Source: an uncultured SAR86 cluster bacterium (GTDB lineage: Bacteria; Pseudomonadota; Gammaproteobacteria; Magnimaribacterales; D2472). From it: 35,546 nt of DNA. The notes under the pieces were generated by a model, which saw only the letters and a program-made list of their open reading frames with translations, did no database searches and had not been told where the DNA came from. This document shows, piece after piece, positions 3,988-9,248 of this stretch (position 1 is its first letter; each line of letters opens with the position of its first letter). Where the stretch lies: positions 1-35,546 of the forward strand of contig CABXFE010000010.1 in NCBI GenBank assembly GCA_902511425.1, in the 5' to 3' direction. The position numbers and the translations under genes are program-made.

Positions 3988-5534
3988 TATCTTAAAAACT
4001 CCTTGTATGCTGTATTGTCTGTTTCTTCGACGAAGCTGTAGTCTAAAGATTTAAGATGCTTCTCTAAAGCATTCTTTGACTTACTTTTATCCTCAATTCC
4101 AATCAATACATTGGCAAATGCAGCTCCAAGATTTCTGTAATGAAATAATGAAATATTCCACTTAGAGCCGAAATCCTTTAAGAATCCCATTAAAGCACCT
4201 GGTCTCACTGGAAATTGGCATCTATATAGTCTCTCTGAGTCTCTTTCAGAAATAACGCTCTTGTGCCCTCCTACCATATGTCGAAGATGGTCATTAGAAA
4301 TTTGATTTTTTGTTAAGTCATTAAATTTAAACTTACTCATTGCAAGCTTGCTTTTAATTTTTTTAAATGCGTCTTCGTTTTCAGTTTTAATTCCTACAAG
4401 AACATGCGCATCTATTTTGTTTGCAAATCTATAGTTAAACTCCGTAATTTGAGATCGGCCAAAAACCTTGCAAAGCTTTAAAAAACTGCCAGGTTTTTCT
4501 GGGATTTTAATGCTCAAAAGTTTTTCTCTATTTTCTCCAACCTCTGATCTTTCAACAATATAGCTAAGTCTTTCAAAATTAACATTTGCGCCACTGCTGA
4601 TAGCTAATAAGCGTTTATCTGAAATTTTGGATGCATATTTTTTAAGACCAGCCAAGGCAAGAGCTCCAGCTGGCTCAGAAAGAACTCTTGTATCTTCAAA
4701 AATATCTTTTACTGCAGCACATAGCTCATCAATGCTCACTGTTATTACCCCATCAACACATTCTCTTATGACGTCAAAGTTATGCTTACCAATACGCTCT
4801 ACTGCAACCCCATCTGCAAACAACCCTACTTCTCGCAACCTAACTCTTTTGTCGGCCTTCACCGCTTCAAACAGACAAGCCGAGTCCTCAACCTCAACAC
4901 CATAAATTTTAGTCTTTGTTTGAGTTTGAGCAGCCCACGCACCAATACCCGCCAAAAGTCCGCCACCACCAACTGGAACAAAAATAACGTCTAGGTTTTT
5001 ATCTAGGTCCAAAATTTCTTTTCCAACAGTGCCCTGCCCGGCTATTGTTAATGGATCATCAAATGCTTCAATGAATTCAAGTTTTTGTTCCTTCGCCATT
5101 TGAATTGCTTTTTTTGAGGCTTGATCAAAGTTATCTCCATGCAATAAAACCTTAGAGCCAAATCTTTTAACGGACTTAACCTTTATTTCAGGAGTCGTTA
5201 CTGGCATTACTATGAAGCAAGGGACTTTTAGCTTTTTGCAGGCATTAGCAACGCCTTGAGCATGGTTGCCTGCTGAAGCAGTCATAACTCCCCTTTTTTG
5301 CTGCTGCTTACTTAAATTCGCAATTTTGTTATATGCCCCTCTGATCTTAAAGGAAAAAATAGGCTGCATGTCTTCACGTTTCAAATAAACTTCATTACTC
5401 AATTTGCTTGACAAATTTCCGGCAAAAGTTATGGGTGTTTGATCAGCAACATCATATACTTTAGATTCGGCAACCAAATCTAAATATTTTTTTGAAAATT
5501 TATATGAGCCTGATTTTTTTATTTTAAGTCGCAT
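3987..5534 (-). CDS. ilvA: Threonine ammonia-lyase (threonine deaminase), biosynthetic
   Basis: This PLP enzyme converts threonine to 2-oxobutanoate, the first committed step to isoleucine. The catalytic domain (about 20-325) has the PLP lysine K63 in SFKIRGAYNK, the substrate loop SAGNHAQGVA (87-96), the phosphate-binding glycine loop VGGGGLLAG (188-196) and SSGAN (313-317). Two ACT-like regulatory domains follow at about 338-415 and 430-510 (PGSFLKLC..., PGALMGFLKDFG..., NISLFHYR), as in E. coli IlvA, so allosteric inhibition by isoleucine is expected. The total of 515 aa is the full family length. It is divergent from rpiA with only 24 bases between starts, an arrangement also known from Pseudomonas. 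The frame continues into an epoxide hydrolase by a one-base overlap. Confidence 0.96.
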   Translation of the reverse strand: MRLKIKKSGSYKFSKKYLDLVAESKVYDVADQTPITFAGNLSSKLSNEVYLKREDMQPIFSFKIRGAYNKIANLSKQQQKRGVMTASAGNHAQGVANACKKLKVPCFIVMPVTTPEIKVKSVKRFGSKVLLHGDNFDQASKKAIQMAKEQKLEFIEAFDDPLTIAGQGTVGKEILDLDKNLDVIFVPVGGGGLLAGIGAWAAQTQTKTKIYGVEVEDSACLFEAVKADKRVRLREVGLFADGVAVERIGKHNFDVIRECVDGVITVSIDELCAAVKDIFEDTRVLSEPAGALALAGLKKYASKISDKRLLAISSGANVNFERLSYIVERSEVGENREKLLSIKIPEKPGSFLKLCKVFGRSQITEFNYRFANKIDAHVLVGIKTENEDAFKKIKSKLAMSKFKFNDLTKNQISNDHLRHMVGGHKSVISERDSERLYRCQFPVRPGALMGFLKDFGSKWNISLFHYRNLGAAFANVLIGIEDKSKSKNALEKHLKSLDYSFVEETDNTAYKEFLR

Positions 5535-6200: not shown

Positions 6201-6721
6201 AGTACTGCAGTTATAGCAGAGACTAACTTTTCAGATTCTGGTGTTACTCTAGACTTGTAATGATCGATGACCTCGCCATCTCTACCAATTAAATATTTTG
6301 CAAAATTCCATCTCGGCTCTTTGCCTGATGCGGCAATAAGTTTTTTATAAAAAGGGTGGGCATTTTTACCCTTGACTTTAGCGGTTGCAAACATTGGAAA
6401 ATCGACTCCATATTCAGTACTGCAGAACTCAGCAACTTTTGCTTCCTCAGAAAATTCTTGCTTAAAATCTCTTGATGGGATACCTATGACCACGAAACCA
6501 TCGTCTTTATATTTAGAATAAATTCTTTGTAAAGCTGCATACTGAGGAGTGTATCCACACCTGCTAGCAACATTGACTACTAGTACGACATTTCCTGAGT
6601 ATTCACAGAGATTTTTTTCATCATCTGAATCTAACACTCTTAAATTGCTGTTAAGCAGGTCAGAGCATGCAAACGAAGCAGACGATAAAGTTAATAATGT
6701 AAGGATAAAAAGGTTTTTCAT
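6197..6721 (-). CDS. Exported glutathione peroxidase family protein
   Basis: A thiol peroxidase of the glutathione peroxidase fold that reduces hydroperoxides. Residues 1-18 are a signal peptide (short basic start, leucine-rich core, SASFA), suggesting the periplasm; the cysteine at 19 makes a lipoprotein thinkable but the lipobox is poor. The peroxidatic residue is cysteine, C55 in NVASRCGYTPQY, not selenocysteine. The rest of the catalytic set is Q88 and W138/N139 (RWNF). C100 is a candidate resolving cysteine, which would make it thioredoxin- rather than glutathione-dependent. Length is 174 aa. It lies 10 bases downstream of a 29-codon ORF with a structured leader and its own promoter. Confidence 0.9.
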   Translation of the reverse strand: MKNLFILTLLTLSSASFACSDLLNSNLRVLDSDDEKNLCEYSGNVVLVVNVASRCGYTPQYAALQRIYSKYKDDGFVVIGIPSRDFKQEFSEEAKVAEFCSTEYGVDFPMFATAKVKGKNAHPFYKKLIAASGKEPRWNFAKYLIGRDGEVIDHYKSRVTPESEKLVSAITAVL

Positions 6722-6731
6722 CCTTTAAATA

Positions 6732-6821
6732 TTACACTAATGGAGAAATAGCGTAAACAGAAGATATAAAGATCGAAACAAGTGTGACTAATTCGAATTT
6801 TTCAACTAACTTTGCATTCAT
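6732..6821 (-). CDS. Possible 29-residue hydrophobic small protein or leader peptide
   Basis: An ATG at 6821 opens 29 codons ending in TAA at 6734-6732, ten bases before the peroxidase start. AAAGG sits about 7 bases before the ATG, a better ribosome site than most genes here have. The product starts MNAKLVEKFELVTLVSIF and continues hydrophobic, so it could be a single membrane helix with a charged N-terminus or a leader peptide. I recognise no family. The case for a real gene is its ribosome site, its position between a structured leader and gpx, and a promoter upstream. At this length chance cannot be excluded. Confidence 0.45.
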   Translation of the reverse strand: MNAKLVEKFELVTLVSIFISSVYAISPLV

Positions 6822-6842
6822 AATAAACCTTTTGTAAGAGGT

Positions 6843-6911
6843 GGAGGGCCTGAGCCCTCCATAATTCCAGAGAATTACCAACAAATCATAGGGGGAGAGA
6901 AGTGTTGGTAA
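6843..6911 (-). promoter_or_regulatory. Two-hairpin 5' leader upstream of the small ORF and glutathione peroxidase
   Basis: Read on the minus strand, the transcript would begin in hairpin 1: nine perfect pairs TTACCAACA/TGTTGGTAA (6911-6903 with 6883-6875) closing a 19-base pyrimidine-rich loop with a run of five C. After 14 bases comes hairpin 2: GGAGGGC/GCCCTCC (6860-6854 with 6849-6843), seven perfect mostly G-C pairs and a four-base loop. The loop segment CTCTCC of hairpin 1 can also pair with GGAGGG of hairpin 2 (six pairs, one G-U), so a pseudoknot or alternative fold is possible. Neither hairpin is followed by a U run, so these are not simple terminators. I do not recognise a known riboswitch class. 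Confidence 0.6.
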
Positions 6912-6916
6912 ACATC

Positions 6917-6944
6917 ATTATATATATTTATAACCATTTATCAA
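6917..6944 (-). promoter_or_regulatory. Promoter for the structured leader / small ORF / peroxidase operon
   Basis: On the minus strand TTGATA (6944-6939), 16 bases, then a perfect TATAAT (6922-6917). The predicted start is 6910, the second base of the first hairpin's 5' arm. This is among the best sigma-70-type promoters in the window. Confidence 0.65.
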
Positions 6945-7026
6945 TATAAATGATAAATAAATTTTAATTATTTTAGAATATAACTAAATATTATCTTTAT
7001 AAGAAATTGGATAAGAATTAACATAT

Positions 7027-7057
7027 TTGAGCCCAAACCTCTAAAAATATATATAAT
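7027..7057 (+). promoter_or_regulatory. Putative promoter of the fatty-acid oxidation gene
   Basis: TTGAGC (7027-7032) is followed after 17 bases by TATATA (7050-7055), or after 19 bases by TATAAT (7052-7057). The start would be near 7062-7064, giving a leader of about 25 bases with a weak AGAG ribosome site before the ATG at 7089. The rest of the gap (about 6945-7026) is very AT-rich and I see nothing else in it. Confidence 0.45.
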
Positions 7058-7088
7058 TTCAGATTAATTTTTTAATCCAGAGATAATT

Positions 7089-9248
7089 ATGACAAACGAG
7101 TTAAAGGGTAAGGTTAATTACACTGTAAACGGGAATATTGCTATTTTAGAGGTAGATAATCCACCCGTTAACCCACTTAGTAGCGGCGTTAGAGCCGGTT
7201 TAGCAGAATATATTGCAAAAGCAAATGAAGATGATTCAATCGAGGGAATTATTCTTACTGGGGCTGGAAGATCGTTTATTGCCGGAGCAGATATTTCTGA
7301 GTTTGGCCAAAAGTCTGATGGTCCTGACCTTCATACCACGTTAAAAGAGATAGAATTCAGCAAAAAGCCCGTTTTAGCTGCTATTAATGGTACAGCTTTG
7401 GGCGGTGGGCTGGAAACAGCATTGGTATGTAACTATAGAATTGGGACAAATAAAGCTATAGTTGGCCTTCCAGAGGTCAATTTAGGCTTACTACCTGGTG
7501 CAGGCGGCACACAAAGGCTTCCTAGATTAATCGGACCATCTCAAGCCCTTAAAATGATGATTGCCGGAACGCCTATTTCTGCTAAAAAGGCTTTGCAACA
7601 GGGTGTGATAGATGCAATTTCAGAAAATTCACTTATGGACGATGCTATTGCCTTTCTTCAAGAAAAAATTGGGTCTAATGATCATCCAAAAGTAAGAGAT
7701 AAAAATGAAAAAATCCTTGAAGCTAAAGGAGATGAAAATGTTCTTGCAGAAGCCAAAGCGTTGGCAGCGAAAACTAGAAGAGGCCAATTTGCTCCTGGTC
7801 AAATTATTGCTTGCGTAGAAGCTGCAATTAATGAAGATGATTTTGATACTGGCATGAAAAAAGAATCAGAATATTTTTTGGAATGTTTAATGAATCCTCA
7901 AAGAGAAGCTATGATTCATATATTCTTCGGTGAGCGTGCTGCTTCGAAAATTTCTGATATCCCAAAGGAAACACCTCTCCTTCCAATAGGATCTGCTGGT
8001 GTTGTAGGCTCAGGAACAATGGGCGGGGGAATTGCAATGAATTTTGCAAATGCTGGTATACCTGTTTTAGTTCTTGATCAGGATGAAAAAAATCTTGAAA
8101 GAGGGATGGGAGTAATTGAAAAAAATTATCAAATGATGGTAGACAGAGGAAGAATGTCTCAAGAACAAAAAGATATGGTTATGGGTTTAATAACTCCAAC
8201 ACTTACATATGATGATTTATCTAACGTTGATATTGCAGTTGAAGCGGTCTATGAAAACCTTGATTTAAAACAAGAGATTTTTAAGAGTTTAGACTCAGTT
8301 ACTAAAGAACATGCCATCCTTGCATCTAATACCTCTGGTTTAGATATTGATGCAATAGCATCATCAACAACAAGGCCTGGAAAAGTAGTGGGCACTCACT
8401 TTTTTAGTCCAGCAAATGTTATGCGACTGCTTGAAGTTGTTAGGGGTAGAGAATCCTCAGACGAAACAATGGCCACAGTAATGTCTTTAGGCAAGAAGAT
8501 GGGTAAAGCTGCTGTTGTCTCTTTAAATGCTCCAGGCTTTATAGGTAACAGAATGCTTGCTGGATACACATATCAAGCAAATATGTTGTTGCTTGAGGGT
8601 GCGTTACCAAATCAAGTTGATAGCGCATTAGAGTCTTTTGGGATGAGTATGGGTCCATTTAGAATGATGGACTTAGTTGGTCTAGACCTTGGATGGAGAG
8701 CTCGTAAATTAGCTGAAATAGAAACTCCATTAGCAAATAAAATCTCTGATGCATTATGTGAACAAGATAGGTTTGGTCAAAAAACCTCAAAAGGTTTTTA
8801 TAATTATTCAGAAGGTTCAAGGGCTCCAAATCCTGCTCCAGAGAATGAAGCACTATACAAAGAAATAGCTGACCAAAATAATATTGAAAGAAGAGAAATC
8901 TCCGACCAAGAGATTATAGATAGATGTATCTTTGCTCTCGTAAATGAAGGCGCTCGTATTTTAGAAGAGGGCGTTGCTCAAAGAGCTGGTGATATGGACA
9001 TAGTCTATATTAATGGTTATGGATTCCCTATATGGAGAGGTGGGCCTATGTTCTATGCAAACCAACAAGGTCTGTCAGAGGTTGTGAGTAAGATAAATGA
9101 TTTTTCAAGCTTGGATGAAAATTTCTGGAAACCAGCTCCATTACTGAAAAAACTTGCAGAAGAGTCTGGAAAATTTGGTGAAGCTCCATTAATTGAGGAC
9201 CGAGCAGAGCTATTAAGCTTTAAAACCGACAATATGGGTGGTGTATAG
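7089..9248 (+). CDS. Bifunctional enoyl-CoA hydratase / 3-hydroxyacyl-CoA dehydrogenase (FadB/FadJ-like)
   Basis: This 719-aa protein catalyses two successive beta-oxidation steps. The N-terminal crotonase domain (about 10-200) has the oxyanion segments AGADIS (65-70) and GTALGGGLE, with both catalytic glutamates: E109 (GGGLET) and E129 (GLPEVNLG). The dehydrogenase part begins at about 300 with the NAD-binding GSGTMG (307-312). The catalytic histidine is H437 (GTHFFSPANVMRLLEV), paired with E449. The usual C-terminal dehydrogenase repeats follow (GFIGNRM near 500, GFPIWRGGP near 650). No thiolase gene adjoins it, unlike fadBA or fadIJ operons. The monomeric peroxisomal-like class (PMFE) is about this size, so an E. 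coli-type FadBA partnership is not assured. Confidence 0.93.
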   Translation: MTNELKGKVNYTVNGNIAILEVDNPPVNPLSSGVRAGLAEYIAKANEDDSIEGIILTGAGRSFIAGADISEFGQKSDGPDLHTTLKEIEFSKKPVLAAINGTALGGGLETALVCNYRIGTNKAIVGLPEVNLGLLPGAGGTQRLPRLIGPSQALKMMIAGTPISAKKALQQGVIDAISENSLMDDAIAFLQEKIGSNDHPKVRDKNEKILEAKGDENVLAEAKALAAKTRRGQFAPGQIIACVEAAINEDDFDTGMKKESEYFLECLMNPQREAMIHIFFGERAASKISDIPKETPLLPIGSAGVVGSGTMGGGIAMNFANAGIPVLVLDQDEKNLERGMGVIEKNYQMMVDRGRMSQEQKDMVMGLITPTLTYDDLSNVDIAVEAVYENLDLKQEIFKSLDSVTKEHAILASNTSGLDIDAIASSTTRPGKVVGTHFFSPANVMRLLEVVRGRESSDETMATVMSLGKKMGKAAVVSLNAPGFIGNRMLAGYTYQANMLLLEGALPNQVDSALESFGMSMGPFRMMDLVGLDLGWRARKLAEIETPLANKISDALCEQDRFGQKTSKGFYNYSEGSRAPNPAPENEALYKEIADQNNIERREISDQEIIDRCIFALVNEGARILEEGVAQRAGDMDIVYINGYGFPIWRGGPMFYANQQGLSEVVSKINDFSSLDENFWKPAPLLKKLAEESGKFGEAPLIEDRAELLSFKTDNMGGV

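Follow-up and report, generated by a model that had tools for sequence, protein, structure and literature searches.

The locus lies on the minus strand of the window, by which we mean the whole 35,546-nt stretch analysed here, on contig G000:C10 of the SAR86 genome G000. SAR86 is an abundant uncultured clade of the ocean. In the direction of transcription, a promoter is followed by a hairpin with a C-rich loop, a short linker, a second hairpin, a small ORF and a gene for a putatively exported glutathione peroxidase (GPx), which begins ten bases past the end of the small ORF (Table 1). Direct reading confirmed the coordinates that an earlier, sequence-only reading had given for the promoter and both hairpins, as well as the 29-codon length of the small ORF and its distance to GPx. 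In the following, f1 to f4 are SAR86 families, L numbers are loci and G numbers are genomes.

Table 1. Features of the GPx locus, in the direction of transcription (window coordinates).
Feature	Position	Strand	Basis
Promoter TTGATA-N16-TATAAT	6917..6944	-	TTGATA 6944-6939, TATAAT 6922-6917; direct reading
Predicted small RNA of ~75 nt, comprising hairpin 1, linker and terminator hairpin	6836..6911	-	Predicted ends
Hairpin 1, nine perfect pairs, arms 6911-6903 and 6883-6875	6875..6911	-	Direct reading and covariation
Hairpin 1 loop CUUCUCUCCCCCUAUGAUU, 19 nt, C-rich	6884..6902	-	Direct reading
Loop core CUCUCCCCCUAU, proposed seed for G-run ribosome sites	6888..6899	-	Conserved
Linker UUCUCUGGAAUUAU	6861..6874	-	UCUGRA, conserved solely in the GPx leaders of f1
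Hairpin 2, arms 6860-6854 and 6849-6843, read as a weak intrinsic terminator	6842..6861	-	Direct reading and comparison
Small, probable membrane-protein ORF, 29 codons, MNAKLVEKFELVTLVSIFISSVYAISPLV	6732..6821	-	Conservation, purifying selection
Putatively exported glutathione peroxidase (Cys type), 174 aa	6197..6721	-	Pfam GSHPx, E 2.3e-28; N-terminus signal-like by eye

The window promoter scored 11/12 and ranked first among 11 promoter-like sites between positions 5500 and 8500; because 10.7 such sites are expected by chance, it proves nothing by itself. The single-sequence fold of the leader was modest (z -2.1, with 5/200 shuffles equally good), and the loop was predicted to be unpaired across CUCUCCCCCU. 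Taken alone, the promoter and fold of the window thus hardly exceed chance, and it is their conservation which shows that the arrangement is not accidental.

To assess this conservation, we gathered GPx relatives from 60 genomes and GTDB contigs and obtained 49 distinct upstream regions (GPx e-value of at most 1e-55, duplicates merged). A promoter of the form TTGAT(A/T)-16-(T/C)ATAAT, with a spacing of exactly 16 nt, was present in 47 of them (41 with TATAAT, 6 with CATAAT). The two exceptions were L018, which meets a contig end and has the small ORF, and L065, whose GPx is 53% identical and which has neither leader nor small ORF. A covariance model built on seven sequences (R1) matched all 46 aligned leaders with an e-value of at most 1e-5, its seven source sequences included, and matched the window leader at 6839-6916 with 104.8 bits. 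Among 44 distinct leader rows, 94.7% of the alignment cells were paired and double changes occurred in 14 of 17 pairs; none of 500 shuffles was as good and no slid register came near, although the alignment had been fitted to the model itself, which favours pairing. Most of this covariation came from the helix of hairpin 1, in which all nine pairs showed double changes. Its loop, by comparison, carried CCCC in 46/46 and UCUCCCC in 43/46 leaders. Stem letters that co-vary around fixed loop letters point to the loop as the working part of hairpin 1.

The small ORF was present in 48 of the 49 loci. Its pN/pS in frame was 0.27 (20 sequences) or 0.38 (22 sequences); the two alternative frames gave values of 1.08 to 3.55, with synonymous differences near saturation. 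Residues E10, L14, F18 and P27 were invariant in 25 aligned sequences. Judged by this codon pattern, the small ORF is a genuine gene under purifying selection, and by eye its product looks like a single-pass membrane protein; it had no match in Pfam, NCBIfam, PHROGs or PDB. The arrangement proposed in the sequence-only reading, with promoter, two hairpins, a small coding ORF and the gene in register, was borne out by promoter conservation, covariation and pN/pS. We found no viral contigs encoding this GPx. Most of the genomes searched hold a second, distant GPx (e.g., G000:C21:6542-7009); in many rows of genus g1 this paralogue has in-frame stops where the match begins, a region that probably precedes the actual start codon.

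Hairpin 2 is nearly constant in f1 leaders (GGAGGG in 43/46). Across 47 leaders, nine stand-alone copies of the RNA (described below) and five f4 loci, its stem varied between GGAGGGC, GGAGAGC, GGAGGAC and GGGGCUUCGGCCCC and remained a G+C hairpin throughout, followed in most copies by a T-run. In f4, hairpin 2 was the UUCG terminator GGGGCUUCGGCCCC in 5/5 loci. A sequence that can be exchanged while the G+C hairpin and the usual T-run persist has the look of an intrinsic terminator, and hairpin 2 reads as an interchangeable one, at which transcription would partly end. The mean longest T-run in the 12 nt after hairpin 2 was 3.7 in the leaders, which is weak, and 4.4 in the nine stand-alone copies, a small difference given without a significance test and with the wrong stem taken for L183. 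The linker motif UCUGRA occurred in 43/46 f1 leaders but was not observed in any of the nine stand-alone copies and five f4 loci; this restriction to f1 may hint at an added function in cis.

We then searched 151 genomes of the order with a further model (R2), which matched 50 f1 genomes. The five f1 genomes listed without a match were G023, where the contig ends, and G020, G083, G155 and G163, where the sole GPx found was the distant paralogue. In nine f1 genomes, the match lay away from GPx. These stand-alone copies (L137-L145) have their own promoter, the same hairpin with its C-rich loop, and a terminator with a U-tract. The next long ORF is convergent on the opposite strand, encodes 467-488 aa and ends 69-79 nt past the first base of the RNA; the small ORF was absent from the stretches read around all nine copies. 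Genome G030 (94% complete) keeps a stand-alone copy, and no close GPx was found there. A tRNA was located near the stand-alone RNA in 8/8 loci scanned (L137-L143 and L145).

The RNA was also found in two further families. In f4, all five GPx loci read contained the promoter, hairpin, terminator, small ORF and GPx, and the hairpin had the form GUCAGUC-UCUCCUCUCCCCCA..-GACUGAC or a near variant. Some f4 genomes (L180, L182) have an extra ORF of ~34 codons between the terminator and the conserved small ORF. In f3, a hairpin-only model that includes two f3 sequences (R3) matched 14 genomes of one genus at 32.9-43.1 bits. The f3 copies show hairpin 1, lie between polA and engB in all four contexts seen, and show no G-rich terminator arm. 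The engB flank of G009, G032, G062 and G044 contained no such hairpin. Neither the RNA nor the small ORF was present at the f2 (7/7) and f3 (6/6) GPx loci read, where a different ORF immediately precedes GPx; the one such ORF scanned encodes a YkuD L,D-transpeptidase. GPx thus does not need the RNA. The expectation that an intact peroxidase would keep the paired arms accordingly held in f1 (47/49, one miss being a contig end) and f4 (5/5), and failed in f2 and f3.

Weak R2 matches in f2 (L147, L148) were judged to be chance. In three f2 genomes (L361, L362 and L363), hairpins with CCCC or CCCCC loops lie beside engB; these might be a diverged counterpart of the RNA or simply terminators. Outside SAR86, the hairpin model gave no convincing match among 274 genomes of the class. 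It yielded 19 matches outside the SAR86 order with at most 26.6 bits, and the nine inspected were judged to be chance matches, which were coding or had no C-rich loop, with no engB or polA nearby.

Searching the window against Rfam 15 at gathering thresholds returned only 6S RNA, elsewhere in the window (RF00013, 65 bits, 2096-2271 on the plus strand). A permissive scan of 6600-7100 stayed far below gathering, 16 loci gave only tRNAs, and the L146 region gave nothing near gathering. We consider a riboswitch unlikely because an aptamer would always lie upstream of its gene, which the stand-alone copies do not, and because there was no Rfam match.

These distributions bear on how the leader could work. 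A cis-acting attenuator would let the C-rich loop pair with GGAGGG of hairpin 2 and undo the terminator, with a ligand, a protein or the redox state favouring the pseudoknot and switching GPx on. Base-pairing between the two elements is possible, since the GGAGGG of 43/46 leaders is complementary, with G-U pairs, to CUCUCC; the leader stands directly ahead of the small ORF and GPx, and the UCUGRA linker is conserved in GPx leaders only. However, the loop is pyrimidine-rich and hairpin 2 purine-rich, both are of low complexity and nearly invariant, and complementarity between them is expected anyway. In the window RNA no alternative fold wins, the f3 copies do not show the G-rich arm, and the stand-alone copies lack a gene that they could control in cis. 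We consider the attenuator unlikely, and found nothing in support of the ligand- or peroxide-sensing cis riboregulator put forward in the sequence-only reading. The other option raised there, a small-RNA precursor, proved the better one, as the RNA stands alone in nine genomes and hairpin 2 behaves as an interchangeable terminator.

Looking for partners of such a small RNA, we counted the pattern AGGGGGAG-N1-15-ATG in 26 genomes of the genus and found 94 sites, compared with 34 for the reversed control, a number that Shine-Dalgarno (SD) bias alone would raise and that includes some sites antisense to the RNA itself. Among 30 sites examined, two looked by eye like true gene starts, and both belonged to TonB-dependent receptors. 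As the complement of the loop, (A/U)GGGG(G)A, thus appeared at receptor starts, we tested receptors systematically. From 134 plug-domain matches in eight genomes we retained 129 usable starts (four were left out, and L220 was excluded because it meets a contig end). A rule set the start codons in both gene sets, and for receptors alone it included a term for a hydrophobic N-terminus. We replaced a first background of 131 ORFs, which covered few gene families and included antisense ORFs. Its successor of 203 ORFs still came from a simple ORF rule, and we therefore added an SD-bearing control.

GGGG occurred at positions -20 to -4 in 64/129 receptor starts and in 4/203 other ORFs (Fisher 4.8e-27), the genes of related genomes not being independent; merging similar N-termini left it in 46/97 receptor clusters (Fisher 2.5e-22). 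GGGGG was found in 27/129 and 0/203, respectively. By genome, the counts for GGGG were G000 5/10, G009 8/17, G002 10/21, G024 8/17, G032 8/16, G062 11/18, G044 4/13 and G039 10/17; roughly one receptor in two is thus without it. The G-run sits at the Shine-Dalgarno position (64/129, compared with 1/129 at -37 to -21). In f1 it is followed by A in 48/50 sites, with a gap of 4-8 nt to the start in 45/50.

We further compared predicted binding energies. Receptor sites bound the RNA loop at -10.3 kcal/mol versus -7.4 kcal/mol for the SD-bearing background (p 6e-6), whereas binding to the anti-SD hardly differed (-7.5 versus -7.0 kcal/mol, p 0.04). For f1 receptor sites, none of 100 shuffled loops paired as well as the real one, and the strongest sites formed about 9-13 near-continuous predicted pairs with the loop.

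The G-runs could instead be a translation feature of the receptors that is unrelated to the RNA, which would be real and have other targets. G039, an f2 genome with no match to the hairpin model, has GGGG in 10/17 receptor sites, so a different cause of the G-runs, or a different partner for them, is conceivable. Furthermore, in 14 f3 receptor sites (L368-L381), GGGG was present in six and five or more G in five; the prediction that these sites, facing a loop with four C, would carry G4 rather than G5 was not borne out, and site length did not change together with loop length. Two results speak against this explanation, which we regard as improbable: receptor sites stay near the SD-bearing background in anti-SD affinity while their affinity for the loop is much higher, and GGGGG occurs in 25/99 f1 receptor sites and in 0/17 of those of the f2 genome.

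A search for Hfq (PF17209) found none in eight genomes (G000, G009, G032, G062, G026, G044, G039 and G040), seven of which are at least 92% complete, while control genomes matched. A search of open-access literature returned no paper on SAR86 TonB-dependent receptors together with a small RNA and nothing relevant on SAR86 Hfq (most subscription papers lay outside this scope).

On balance, we favour a model in which a ~75-nt small RNA with a C-rich loop, which doubles as the leader for GPx and a small membrane protein, pairs with receptor ribosome sites and represses them independently of Hfq. From a sigma-70-type promoter, an RNA would be made that consists of a 5′ hairpin displaying the fixed loop core CUCUCCCCCUAU and a terminator hairpin. 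Part of the transcripts would pass the terminator, so that both downstream products, the membrane protein and the exported GPx, are expressed; the ~20 nt that separate hairpin 2 from the small ORF are too short for another promoter, which suggests read-through from the same promoter or from one further upstream. The loop of the freed RNA would pair, without Hfq, with the (A/U)GGGG(G)A ribosome sites of TonB-dependent receptor mRNAs and would block their translation. Going by the site enrichment and the predicted pairing, the RNA probably turns these receptors down. An active GPx promoter would then mean fewer outer-membrane receptors, and oxidative stress may be the link between the two. That the small membrane protein is instead the main product of a dual-function RNA whose hairpins mainly stabilise the mRNA is very unlikely: its ORF follows the RNA in 48/49 loci and in 5/5 f4 loci and is under purifying selection, but it is missing from what was read around the nine stand-alone copies.

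By its working principle, the RNA would belong with trans-acting small RNAs with C-rich loops of the sX13 and GsrN type, a functional class and not a homology family. It has a stable hairpin that exposes a C-rich loop; its own transcription unit, read from sequence, is given by the nine stand-alone copies and the 5/5 f4 terminators; and G-rich sites lie at the starts of the candidate targets, also in the f2 genome without a detected copy. The earlier statement that the leader matches no known class holds for Rfam 15 and does not hold for the principle, for which sX13, GsrN and ChvR are analogues.

The comparisons that follow draw on excerpts of the cited papers. In Xanthomonas, the C-rich apical loops of sX13 are described as pairing with 4G motifs near starts, Hfq is dispensable and the gene lies beside polA; in one receptor case, the mRNA was lower without sX13 (PMC3771888). 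For the SAR86 RNA, pairing of a C-rich loop with G-rich sites and independence of Hfq are likewise proposed, and its f3 copies also lie beside polA and engB. In contrast to the three stem-loops described for sX13, it has one C-rich hairpin and a terminator; unlike sX13 as described there, it leads a GPx operon (f1 and f4) and appears to be aimed at a receptor family. GsrN of Caulobacter, which is controlled by sigma-T, binds G-rich leaders with a C-rich 5′ loop and is linked to survival of peroxide via katG (PMC5869019). According to that account GsrN activates katG in trans, whereas the SAR86 RNA sits before the GPx gene and we propose no activation of GPx by pairing. ChvR, also of Caulobacter, is reported as an Hfq-independent small RNA that represses a TonB-dependent receptor, with one of two sites covering -20 to -10 (PMC6237742); it is described with one target and two stem-loops, while the SAR86 motif is common to about half of the receptor genes. 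The polA-engB locus is also that of ErsA (PMC8575079) and of Spot 42, which needs Hfq (PMC3771888). This is the locus of the f3 copies in four genomes, and the window copy is found at the GPx locus instead. The requirement of Spot 42 for Hfq differs from the SAR86 genomes examined, in which Hfq was not found (0/8), and the Rfam model of Spot 42 did not match the SAR86 RNA in the L146 region or the 16 loci.

Neither the RNA nor the ~29-aa membrane protein has a match in the libraries searched. TonB-dependent receptors decide what SAR86 takes up from sea water, and we know of no regulation described for them. We tentatively suggest, as a possibility that goes further than the model itself, that a single RNA with a C-rich hairpin governs a large part of the SAR86 TonB-dependent receptors via a common G-run ribosome site, and that two families couple its production, by terminator read-through, to that of an exported peroxidase and a novel small membrane protein. 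One promoter would then both detoxify peroxide and close the gates for nutrients and iron. If true, this would be a regulon that the sequences of uncultured genomes suffice to reveal, a clear example of outer-membrane control without Hfq, and a connection of oxidative stress to nutrient uptake that can be tested.
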